A DNA stretch of 46,093 nt from an uncultured Pseudomonadota bacterium. GTDB lineage: Bacteria; Myxococcota_A; UBA796; SXON01. Both the position numbers and the translations under genes were made by a program. The notes under the pieces are model-generated. The model was not told the DNA's origin and made no database searches. It saw only the letters and a list, made by a program, of their open reading frames with translations. The stretch spans positions 1 through 46,093 of the forward strand of contig CAIMSU010000088.1 in the NCBI GenBank assembly GCA_903844155.1, read 5' to 3'. Positions 26,645 through 30,493 of the stretch are shown here, in pieces; the first letter of the stretch is position 1, and each line of letters begins with the position of its first letter.

Positions 26645-27454
26645 ATGATCCGCCTCGTCGCTCTCACACCGTCCTTCCTCACATCCCTCGCCCTCTTCTC
26701 GCTCGTCGCCTGCGCGCAGACGCAGAAAGGGGCTGACTCCGGCGACACCTCCAACGGCAATGAAAACGGGGATTCGAGCGCCGATACCGACACGGACACA
26801 GACACCGACACGGACACAGATACCGACACGGATACCGACACCGACACCGACACCGATTCGGACACCGACACCGACACGAACACCGGGTGCCCGGCCGTCA
26901 CTTCGGCGACGACCACCCTCGTCGTCACCGACATCGACGAGACGCTGACCACGTCGGACAGTGAGTACCTCCAGCAGATCATCGACCCTTCCTACGACCC
27001 CGCGATGCGCCCGGACGCCAACACACTGATGCAGGCTTACTTCTCGCTCGGCTACCGCATCATCTATGTGACCGCCCGCGGCGACGACCTCCCCCTCTCG
27101 GACGGCACCAGCGCGACCGACGCCACGACCGCCTGGCTCACCCTCCACGGCTTCCCCCTCGATCCCGCCGACGTGCACCTCGCCAGCGGCATCTACGAGA
27201 CCGACCCCGCCGGCTTCAAGACCGACGTGCTCTCGGGAATTCAGGCCGAGGGCCTCACGCTCTCGTGGGCCTACGGGAACGCCGACACGGACATCCAGGC
27301 CTACCAGAACGTCGCCATCGACAACGCCCACATCTTCCTCGTCGGCAAGCTCTCCGACACGGCCAGCACGTACGGAGTGAACCCGATCTCGGACGACGAC
27401 GCGTACACCAACCACCTCGCGTCGTTCATCCCGACGGTGCCCTGCGGCGGCTGA
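26645..27454 (+). CDS. Lipoprotein with (Asp-Thr)n stalk and lipin/LNS2-like HAD domain
   Basis: The 269-residue protein has a lipobox LVAC (Cys23), a low-complexity stalk of 16 Asp-Thr/Ser pairs (residues 47-78) and a HAD-fold domain resembling LNS2, the catalytic region of lipin-type phosphatidate phosphatases. Asp96 and Asp98 in TDIDETLT are the nucleophile and acid/base, IIYVTARGDD supplies motif II, and the typical segment linking a predicted GFP-type loop to ASGIYETDPAGFKT is present. An exported HAD phosphatase of this type would act on surface or extracellular phospho-lipid or phospho-sugar. The substrate is inferred only from the family. Confidence 0.8.
   Translation: MIRLVALTPSFLTSLALFSLVACAQTQKGADSGDTSNGNENGDSSADTDTDTDTDTDTDTDTDTDTDTDTDSDTDTDTNTGCPAVTSATTTLVVTDIDETLTTSDSEYLQQIIDPSYDPAMRPDANTLMQAYFSLGYRIIYVTARGDDLPLSDGTSATDATTAWLTLHGFPLDPADVHLASGIYETDPAGFKTDVLSGIQAEGLTLSWAYGNADTDIQAYQNVAIDNAHIFLVGKLSDTASTYGVNPISDDDAYTNHLASFIPTVPCGG
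26783..26878 (+). repeat. Six-base tandem repeat encoding (Asp-Thr)16
   Basis: Sixteen in-frame units of the type GA[C/T]AC[C/G/A] (one unit reads GATTCG) make the protein stalk. The unit length keeps the frame, so gain or loss of units would change only stalk length. Confidence 0.85.
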
Positions 27455-27496: not shown

Positions 27497-28777
27497 GTGC
27501 GCGTCAACCAGCCCGTCGTAGAGCCCGACATCGTCGTCGTTGGCGGAACGCGCGCGCCGTTTCGCGACGTCTACCATGCCTTTCTGCGCCTCACGTTCGT
27601 TGAGGCACTGGCGCTGATCCTCGGCGGCATCATCGGCATCAACGTGCTGTTTGCGCTCGCCTACCTGGCGACGGGCGGGATCGCCAACGCCGCCCCCGGC
27701 TCGTTTGTCGACGCGTTCTCGTTCTCCATGCAGACCATCGTCACCATCGGCTACGGTCAGATGTACCCGGCGTCGGGAGCCGCAAAACTCGTCTCGGACG
27801 TGGAGGCGATGAGCGGGCTGATGATCACGGCGCTGTCGACGGGCCTGCTCTTCACCAAGTTCAGCCAGACGCGCGCCACGCTGACCTTCGCAAAACGCGC
27901 CGTCGTCTGCATCCAGGACGGCATCCCGACGCTCATCATGCGCATCGGGAACGAGCGGGCGAACCTGATCGTGGAGGCGCAGGCGCGGGTGGTGCTCACG
28001 CGCACAGAGCGGACGGCCGAAGGACGGCTGTTCTACAGGATGTACGACCTGAAGCTTGTCCGCGACCGCAGCATCTCGTTCACCGGCATCTGGCAGGTCA
28101 TGCACCGGATCACGCTGGAATCGCCGCTCTACGGGGCGACCAGCGCGGATCTGGCCGCGCAGGAGGCCGAGATCGCCTGCGCGGTCGTCGGCATCGACGA
28201 CACCTCGCTGCAGCCCATCCATGGCAAGAAGGTCTGGTCAGACGCGGATATTCTCTTTGGCCACCGCCTCGCCGACATGCTTGACCCGCAGCCGGACGGC
28301 AAGCTCTGGGTGCACATCAACCGTTTTGACGACGTCGAGCCGGACCCCACCCCCGCTCCGCCGCCCCATCGGAAGAAGACCCGGTTGCACCATGTACAAC
28401 TCGCAGCACCGGCTGGAGAGCCGGGGAGCGCCGAGGCGGCTGCCCGACGGTTCTTCGGTGAAGTGCTTGCCTACGCGGAGCTGCCAAAGCCCGCCGGGCT
28501 CGCGGAGAACGGCGGTGCCTGGTTCCAGACGGACGACGTCCAGATCCACATCGGCCTCGATCCGGAATTCCATCCGGCCAAGAAGGCACATCCGGCGTTT
28601 GAGCTCCCCGACATCCACGAGCTGCGTGCCCTCTATTCGCGTGTCGAGGCCGCGGACGCGCACCCACGCTGGGACACGCGCCAGGAGGGCGTCACCCGGT
28701 TTTTCGCCGACGACCCCTGGGGAAACCGGCTGGAGTTCTTCGTCGTCGGGACCGAGCCGCCCCAAAAAGCAGGGTGA
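27497..28777 (+). CDS. Inward-rectifier K+ channel (KirBac type) fused to a glyoxalase/VOC domain
   Basis: Residues 20-130 form a two-helix potassium pore (helices about 36-58 and 103-123) with the selectivity filter TIGYG at 83-87. Residues about 130-280 form the cytoplasmic immunoglobulin-like domain of inward rectifiers (ARVVLTRTE, LVRDRS, WQVMHRITLESPLYG). After a Pro-rich linker (281-294) comes a vicinal-oxygen-chelate domain at about 297-417, opening with HHVQLAAP and closing with DDPWGNRLEFF, with candidate metal ligands His299, His351 and Glu413. The frame is continuous and no internal start with a ribosome binding site precedes the VOC part. The start is GTG with AAGG a few bases upstream. 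VOC domains bind metals and small metabolites, so a regulatory sensor for the channel is possible. Confidence 0.88.
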   Translation: MRVNQPVVEPDIVVVGGTRAPFRDVYHAFLRLTFVEALALILGGIIGINVLFALAYLATGGIANAAPGSFVDAFSFSMQTIVTIGYGQMYPASGAAKLVSDVEAMSGLMITALSTGLLFTKFSQTRATLTFAKRAVVCIQDGIPTLIMRIGNERANLIVEAQARVVLTRTERTAEGRLFYRMYDLKLVRDRSISFTGIWQVMHRITLESPLYGATSADLAAQEAEIACAVVGIDDTSLQPIHGKKVWSDADILFGHRLADMLDPQPDGKLWVHINRFDDVEPDPTPAPPPHRKKTRLHHVQLAAPAGEPGSAEAAARRFFGEVLAYAELPKPAGLAENGGAWFQTDDVQIHIGLDPEFHPAKKAHPAFELPDIHELRALYSRVEAADAHPRWDTRQEGVTRFFADDPWGNRLEFFVVGTEPPQKAG

Positions 28778-29933
28778 TGGGGACGAAGAGCAGGGCGGTG
28801 GCCGAATCGCCGCTGCACCCGCAGGTCGGTGGACCCGCGGCTGGGGTCACGTAGCAGGAACCGCCGCCGTAGGCGCCAGCGGTCACGAACGCGTCGTGGT
28901 AGTTCTGGCAGGTATCCCCACCACAACTGTCGACCGCAGCGGCGTCCAGGCAGCCCGCGCCGGCCCACCGCTGCCCACCGTCCCAGATGCCGACGTCAAA
29001 CCCATCCGCGAAGTGATCCGCACAGACGAGCAGCAGATCTCCAGCCTTGTCGCTGCATCGAACCGCAGGCTCGACGTCGCTGACCTCCGAGAAGTGCCGC
29101 CCCCCGTCCATGCTACGCCAGGTGCGCCCGACGTCGGAGCCGAGCCACACGTCGTTGCCGTCGACCGCCATGCCCGGAACCGGGTCGGTGTACAGGCCGT
29201 CCGAGAAGATCTCGGCGTAGGTCATGCCATGGTCGGCCGAAAAGAGCAGAGTCGGCGTCCCGTCGCTCGTCCGCGGGATGCGCCAGAGCCAGAGCCGGCC
29301 ATCGTCGACGGCGAGGATCCGCAAATCGACGTCGCCGTCGGGCCAGTCGGCGACGGCCGTGAACGCCTGACCGTCCGTGGAGGTCCAGAGCCGCTCGGCG
29401 AGGGTCGTGGCGTCGGCGCTGGTGGCGTAGATCCGCTCGCCGTCAGCATCCTCGGAGACCGCCACCGACTTGACATAGAGCCCCTGCAGTTCGGTCGCGA
29501 CACACTCTGGAGACGCGTCAAGGGCGCACCGGTAGAGTCCCCCGCTGCCCGCTGCGTAGATCGCCGCGTAGTAGCCGTCGTTTGCGCGTGCAACGACGGT
29601 CGCGAAGGCATCGGCGGGCAGGCCATCCAGCGGCGTGTTCACGCAGTCGGCCCCGACCGTCTCCAGCCCGTCCGACGTGGCGAGGAGCGCCCGCTGGCCG
29701 TCCACGGCGATGAGATCATACACGCTCTGCGTCGGAATTCCCTCCTCGCAACGCCACGTCCAGCTCGCACCAGCGTCGGTGGTGTAGACCACTCCCCAGC
29801 CGTTGGCGTTCGCCCACCAGGTGTTCGAATCGTCCGGAGCAATGGAGATCGCGGAGAGGCTGAACCGGTTGCCGTGCGCCATGGCCAGCGACGGCCACGC
29901 CAGCAGCGCGACCAGGCCGAACACGGTTTTCAC
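28692..29933 (-). CDS. Secreted propeller protein with MYXO-CTERM-like tail
   Basis: The 413-residue protein has a signal peptide (cleavage after LAMA), then repeated BNR/YCF48-like propeller motifs such as TTDAGASWTW, TSTDGQAF, SADHGMTYAE and SMDGGRHF. The C-terminus has a Cys-Gly-Cys-Ser motif, a hydrophobic stretch (ATALLFVPITLLFGA) and an Arg cluster, the MYXO-CTERM sorting layout of myxobacteria, though followed by an unusually long basic end. The GTG start overlaps the stop of the upstream gene by four bases. Its 3' end overlaps the convergent channel-VOC gene by 86 bases. Ligand unknown. Confidence 0.8.
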   Translation of the reverse strand: MKTVFGLVALLAWPSLAMAHGNRFSLSAISIAPDDSNTWWANANGWGVVYTTDAGASWTWRCEEGIPTQSVYDLIAVDGQRALLATSDGLETVGADCVNTPLDGLPADAFATVVARANDGYYAAIYAAGSGGLYRCALDASPECVATELQGLYVKSVAVSEDADGERIYATSADATTLAERLWTSTDGQAFTAVADWPDGDVDLRILAVDDGRLWLWRIPRTSDGTPTLLFSADHGMTYAEIFSDGLYTDPVPGMAVDGNDVWLGSDVGRTWRSMDGGRHFSEVSDVEPAVRCSDKAGDLLLVCADHFADGFDVGIWDGGQRWAGAGCLDAAAVDSCGGDTCQNYHDAFVTAGAYGGGSCYVTPAAGPPTCGCSGDSATALLFVPITLLFGAARSRRRRTPAGFPRGRRRKTG

Positions 29934-30493
29934 CGCGCGGAAACTACCTTCCCGCCGATCAGCACCTTCTCGCCGTCCAGCTCCGCTGGCTGTCCAGCGT
30001 AGGCGTCTGAAACCCGGAACGTGCGCTTTCCGATCAGGATGTGACCGTCCTGCCCGACAAAATTGTGCAGGGTGCCCCGACGCCATTGCTGGTAGTGTGC
30101 AGAGCAGAAGCCTTTGGACCGAAGCGTGCCCTCGCAGTCCGGCACGGTGCAGGCCCCGCGCGGAGCAGTATCGACCGGAAGGGTCGAGGCTGTCGGCACC
30201 ATCGCGACCGCTGCGGCCGCGAATTCCGCTCGCGACGCACTCAACGCATCGTAAGCCGCCTTCAGCTCCGCGAGCGTCGCCTCCTGGGCGCTCTTGAGCT
30301 CGGTGAGCCGGCTCTCCGCGCGGGCGAGGCGACCAGCCAGTGCCTGCGCGTCATCGCGCAACGCCTGCAGTTCGGCGGGGCTCGCGTAGCCCTGCTCGCG
30401 AAGGATCTCATGGACCAACGCCCGGATGGGCGCATCGAGGACTCGCCCGGCGGGGCCAGAGAGACGAGAGGTAAAGGCATCAGCGAGGGGCAT
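29930..30493 (-). CDS. Coiled-coil protein with a Cys3His zinc-site motif
   Basis: The 187-residue protein has a helical region that should form a coiled coil (about 40-95) and a small cysteine motif, Cys115-x4-Cys120-x9-Cys130-x2-His133 (ending GFCSAHYQQWRRG), likely a zinc site of the kind seen in short DNA- or RNA-associated proteins. The last 40 residues are strand-rich. AAGGAG lies six bases before the ATG, and a good sigma-70-like promoter lies upstream. It has no signal peptide, yet is translationally coupled to an exported propeller. I do not recognise the family. Confidence 0.75.
   Translation of the reverse strand: MPLADAFTSRLSGPAGRVLDAPIRALVHEILREQGYASPAELQALRDDAQALAGRLARAESRLTELKSAQEATLAELKAAYDALSASRAEFAAAAVAMVPTASTLPVDTAPRGACTVPDCEGTLRSKGFCSAHYQQWRRGTLHNFVGQDGHILIGKRTFRVSDAYAGQPAELDGEKVLIGGKVVSAR

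Follow-up and report, generated by a model that had tools for sequence, protein, structure and literature searches.

A KirBac-type potassium channel gene continuing in frame into a VOC domain in a single genome, and its two-gene counterpart in a congener

In the window, the whole stretch of 46,093 nt that was analysed, a KirBac-type potassium channel and a VOC domain are encoded by one continuous gene. From the analyses described here it appears probable that, in the window lineage alone, this channel became fused to a VOC protein which a sister genome encodes in the next, overlapping gene; with less certainty, the VOC part may act near the pore. The arrangement consists of the following features:

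26645..27454, + strand: gene of an LNS2-like (HAD) lipoprotein, separated from the channel by 42 nt and also present in the congeners G003 and G004 as a conserved neighbour
27497..28777, + strand: Kir-VOC fusion gene, an open frame of 426 aa plus stop with a GTG start
27497..28348, + strand: KirBac-type channel part (residues 1-284) with two transmembrane helices and IRK_C, based on Pfam, PDB search, and orthologues 74-76% identical
27743..27757, + strand: selectivity filter TIGYG (residues 83-87), from the sequence
28334..28381, + strand: Pro-rich linker VEPDPTPAPPPHRKKT (residues 280-295), from the sequence, of low confidence in the predicted model
28385..28387, + strand: in-frame TTG, candidate start of a separate VOC polypeptide, with the purine-rich stretch GGAAGAAG upstream (read by eye)
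28385..28774, + strand: VOC domain followed by a short tail (residues 297-426), matching 2qqz
28391, 28547, 28589, and 28733, + strand: candidate metal ligands H299, H351, H365, and E413, invariant in the alignment of homologues

A first-pass annotation of the DNA had proposed a continuous frame leading from a Kir channel through a Pro-rich linker to a complete VOC domain with candidate metal ligands, and had named no known example of this pairing. The frame, the linker, the candidate ligand residues, and both domain assignments were confirmed. Searches of open-access papers on the domain architectures of Kir channels, and on KirBac or other potassium channels combined with a glyoxalase or VOC domain, yielded nothing relevant, in agreement with the last point.

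Domain calls on the 426-aa product were based on Pfam, NCBIfam, PDB sequence searches, and AlphaFold2 combined with Foldseek. For the channel half, Pfam detected Ion_trans_2 at residues 54-122 (E 3e-10) and IRK_C at residues 129-286 (E 8e-20), and KirBac3.1 was found as a PDB sequence match over residues 22-280 (E about 3e-52). The features expected of a KirBac protein are present, a GYG-type potassium filter and an IRK_C domain following a two-helix pore. AlphaFold2, run on seven sequences, modelled the channel poorly, with most ten-residue blocks below pLDDT 65, and placed its helices at residues 34-58 and 94-122. Foldseek paired this part with KirBac structures, and the rmsd was high, in keeping with the quality of the model. 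Elsewhere in the same genome, a 309-aa frame (L027, G000:C142:4598-5410) encodes another Kir channel, which is 35% identical and lacks a VOC domain.

The VOC half was modelled confidently in the same run (ten-residue blocks of pLDDT 77-93). Its closest structural reference is 2qqz, a putative glyoxalase-family protein, which matched residues 297-415 in the PDB sequence search (E 4e-24) and was superimposed by Foldseek with an rmsd of 1.4-1.5 and a TM score of 0.86-0.88 of the target. The Pfam Glyoxalase model aligned to residues 338-414 with an E-value of 0.0018 and 19.1 bits, just under the cut-off of 20.6. According to the model and Foldseek, the paired beta-alpha-beta-beta-beta fold is present, and in the alignment residues of metal-ligand type, the four candidates listed above, occupy the conserved strand positions.

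The enzymatic identity of the domain is another matter. The first-pass annotation had considered a detoxifying enzyme beside the channel, with methylglyoxal stress as a comparison, but the VOC part is not recognizable as a glyoxalase acting on methylglyoxal. An NCBIfam search at E-values up to 0.01 gave no match, including the glyoxalase I model TIGR00068, which found a single weak match in the whole genome, on another contig. In addition, the second metal ligand of E. coli GlxI is a Glu residue, and the window VOC has His at this position. An identity as glyoxalase I was rejected. A glutathione-dependent glyoxalase I tethered to the channel, by analogy to the control of KefGB by S-lactoylglutathione, is very improbable. 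It would be in line with the VOC fold, with a glutathione synthetase gene in the genome, which makes glutathione chemistry possible in principle, and with the activation of KefGB by S-lactoylglutathione in E. coli (PMC3412212); besides the missing model match and the His residue, however, KirBac and Kef are unrelated.

Chance can be excluded as the source of the Kir-VOC frame, judging from the strong homologues of both halves within a single frame and from the differences to G004, which fall mostly on third codon positions in both. Counted by codon position, these differences are 54/38/132 in the Kir part and 22/31/54 in the VOC part. NG86 estimates of dN and dS, which are rough since dS is high, were 0.18 and 1.01 for Kir and 0.29 and 1.07 for VOC. 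By these comparisons, the two parts are demonstrably alike in being under purifying selection.

The channel is found at the same place, behind the LNS2-like lipoprotein gene, in three genomes of one genus: the window genome, G003, and G004. Its GTG start is conserved in the orthologues of both congeners (L033 and L032, respectively). In G004 (contig CALQBK020000158.1, L002/L032), the closest genome holding both parts, channel and VOC are specified by two genes overlapping by ATGA, where the sequence is CCATGAGG. The channel protein of 286 aa is 76% identical to the window and ends with KLP-TGA; the VOC protein of 116 aa, which begins at the overlapping ATG, is 58% identical and thereby less conserved than the channel. 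In G003 (L003/L033), the syntenic channel is 74% identical, ends with DPFP-TGA, and has no VOC gene beside it; the following gene is on the opposite strand and its translation resembles a sigma-54-type regulator. In a tree of VOC sequences, the window domain pairs with that of G004 (support 89/84, short of strong), and the branches around this pair are VOC proteins from other bacteria that stand free. The G004 contig (L032) is labelled as a Bifidobacterium breve MAG. Its genes and synteny are those of the genus of the window genome, and the label looks wrong.

Two separate genes in a relative had been named in the first-pass annotation as an observation that would refute the fusion. Such a pair does exist in G004, and to this extent the objection applies in part; the pair is read here as pointing to a recent gene fusion and not to an error, since no one-base shift in the window yields the split layout. 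Between positions 28240 and 28520, stop codons are absent from the channel frame and from the +1 frame, and the first stop past the junction in the third frame, at 28459, lies inside the VOC part. With stops at these positions, a one-base error in a C-run would not restore an arrangement like that of G004. Moreover, the ATG of the G004 VOC gene corresponds to ACC in the window, and the window exceeds G004 by about 25 nt at the junction, which brings the VOC part into the frame of the channel. A one-base assembly error therefore explains the fusion poorly as far as the aligned sequences tell, and a recent gene fusion is the reading adopted here. More generally, the two genes could be truly separate and the channel's stop could have been removed by an assembly or sequencing error, which may have taken the form of a substitution masking a stop. 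The two genes of the sister and the state of the window assembly, a draft of 375 contigs with an estimated contamination of 4.98%, are compatible with this explanation, but one indel is not enough to bring back the compact overlap, and the change from ATG to ACC together with the longer junction amounts to several differences rather than one. Such an error is clearly unlikely.

To our reading, the distribution of the pairing also speaks of a recent event. In the sample of the phylum, the query had a match in 133 of 379 genomes, almost always through the Kir channel part, and VOC proteins of this type were detected in 19 of the 379. The two were side by side in just two cases, as a fusion in the window and as overlapping genes in G004; searches of the order (63 genomes) and the class (71 genomes) agreed with this result. 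Among 398 genomes around the genome of an alphaproteobacterial locus, 28 had a Kir or a VOC match, and in none were the two fused or adjacent. These counts cover genome assemblies, and divergent VOC neighbours could be missed at the cut-offs used. Within the Kir loci fetched, a VOC extension after the channel was seen solely in the window. If more than one fused genome is taken as the mark of a conserved architecture, the sample contains one, a metagenome-type assembly. Retention of the fusion in related genomes, a question raised in the first-pass annotation, was not supported by this sample. Since the pair is split in G004, the channel of G003 lacks the VOC gene, and no other fused case occurs in the sample, the fusion is most likely a young joining, restricted to a single genome, of a pair that was probably translationally coupled.

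In the simplest history, channel and VOC genes would already have been neighbours in the last ancestor shared by the window genome and G004, and the window lineage would then have lost the stop of the channel and the start of the VOC gene. Given the ATGA overlap, joint translation of channel and VOC is expected in G004. Genes that overlap by four nucleotides show translational coupling, and such overlaps are over-represented where the products are subunits of heteromeric complexes (PMC10666635); the G004 layout thereby gives mild support to a partnership that was made permanent by fusion. The gene arrangement suggests that the channel and VOC proteins work together. The product of the fused gene would be a homotetrameric channel with four VOC domains suspended by flexible Pro-rich linkers beneath the cytoplasmic ring, and each domain would bind a divalent metal through its His/His/His/Glu set and handle a small ligand. 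The least certain step is that the VOC domain would act next to the pore, where it could be an enzyme on a tether or a ligand sensor working on the cytoplasmic gate.

A neutral read-through is a serious competitor at this step and quite possible, although we would not call it probable. The channel would have lost its stop, and the VOC part would be a passive tail that works as it did when free and has no effect on the channel. The event is confined to a single genome, the linker is long and flexible in the model, the G003 channel does without a neighbouring VOC gene, and the relatives of the window VOC are mostly free-standing. Furthermore, the in-frame TTG at 28385, which follows a purine-rich stretch, might serve as the start of a separate VOC polypeptide, so that both forms might be present in the cell. 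Against a passive tail, the pair is already adjacent in G004 with a 4-nt overlap, a layout linked with functional partnership (PMC10666635), and the VOC fold and ligands were retained after fusion. The opposite possibility is a ligand-gated Kir channel of a new kind, in which recognition of a metal-bound metabolite by the VOC domain would shift the cytoplasmic gate, in cis in the window and in trans in the sister. Channel and VOC go together in two congeners, in one of them as a fusion, and the VOC domain has an intact ligand set and a place at the C-terminus next to the cytoplasmic gating ring. These points fit the proposal, but it is rather unlikely given the flexible linker of the model and a pairing that is not conserved beyond two genomes. 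The preferred reading, a joined partner that may act near the pore, leaves room for a tethered enzyme as well as for a sensor.

The surroundings of the fusion gene showed further features. The LNS2-like lipoprotein, which has a long TD repeat, adjoins the channel upstream in all three congeners (L032:3420-3989; L033:3422-3988), whereas no other Kir locus that was fetched has it as a neighbour. Its gene is probably in the same operon as the channel. In eukaryotes, the LNS2 domains of PITM and lipin proteins are associated with phosphatidic acid, and lipids regulate Kir channels; any connection between the LNS2-like gene and lipid regulation of the channel would be speculative. On the other side, a convergent gene (28692-30086, - strand) whose product has an anchor-like C-terminus (CGC...RSRRRR) shares 86 nt with the VOC part at the 3' end of the latter. 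The codons for RRRR reach to 28737, right where the conserved residues of the VOC domain finish.

To our knowledge, the natural ligands of bacterial Kir channels, lipids aside, are poorly known. A partner that overlaps the channel gene in one species and is fused to it in another would be a Rosetta-stone clue to the stimulus of the channel. If the VOC domain gates the pore, it represents a new regulatory module for the inward-rectifier family; if it does not, the locus is a clear case of two genes becoming one when an overlapping stop and start were lost.

Another Kir fusion was encountered in the course of the searches. In a second channel class, an N-terminal LtrA membrane domain is in frame with a Kir channel, and tblastn detected 11 such loci in related genomes (L013, L014, L015, L016, L017, L018, L019, L021, L044, L046, and L049; for example L013:214-2316). 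PF06772 was recognized in the six proteins scanned with E-values from 6e-47 to 2e-85, and a literature search on LtrA with a potassium channel gave no result. LtrA-Kir recurs across families of the order, whereas the Kir-VOC fusion is present in one genome. Compared with known proteins, the window product shares with KirBac3.1 and KirBac1.1 (PDB 1xl4 and 1p7b) the two-transmembrane GYG pore followed by the Kir cytoplasmic domain; these channels stop there, while the window protein adds the linker and the VOC domain. The NirBac proteins, prokaryotic relatives of Kir channels, demonstrate the modularity of the Kir scaffold, but their filter is altered (PMC4607889), whereas the window protein combines a standard filter with an extra domain. 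With 2qqz, the window VOC has in common the single-chain VOC fold, about 40% identity, and four matching residues of ligand type; 2qqz, however, is free-standing, of unreported function, and without a channel. KefGB (PMC3412212) would share the logic of electrophile detoxification tied to potassium flux if the VOC domain were a glyoxalase, but it belongs to an unrelated transporter family, and its likeness to Kir-VOC would be one of logic, not of homology.
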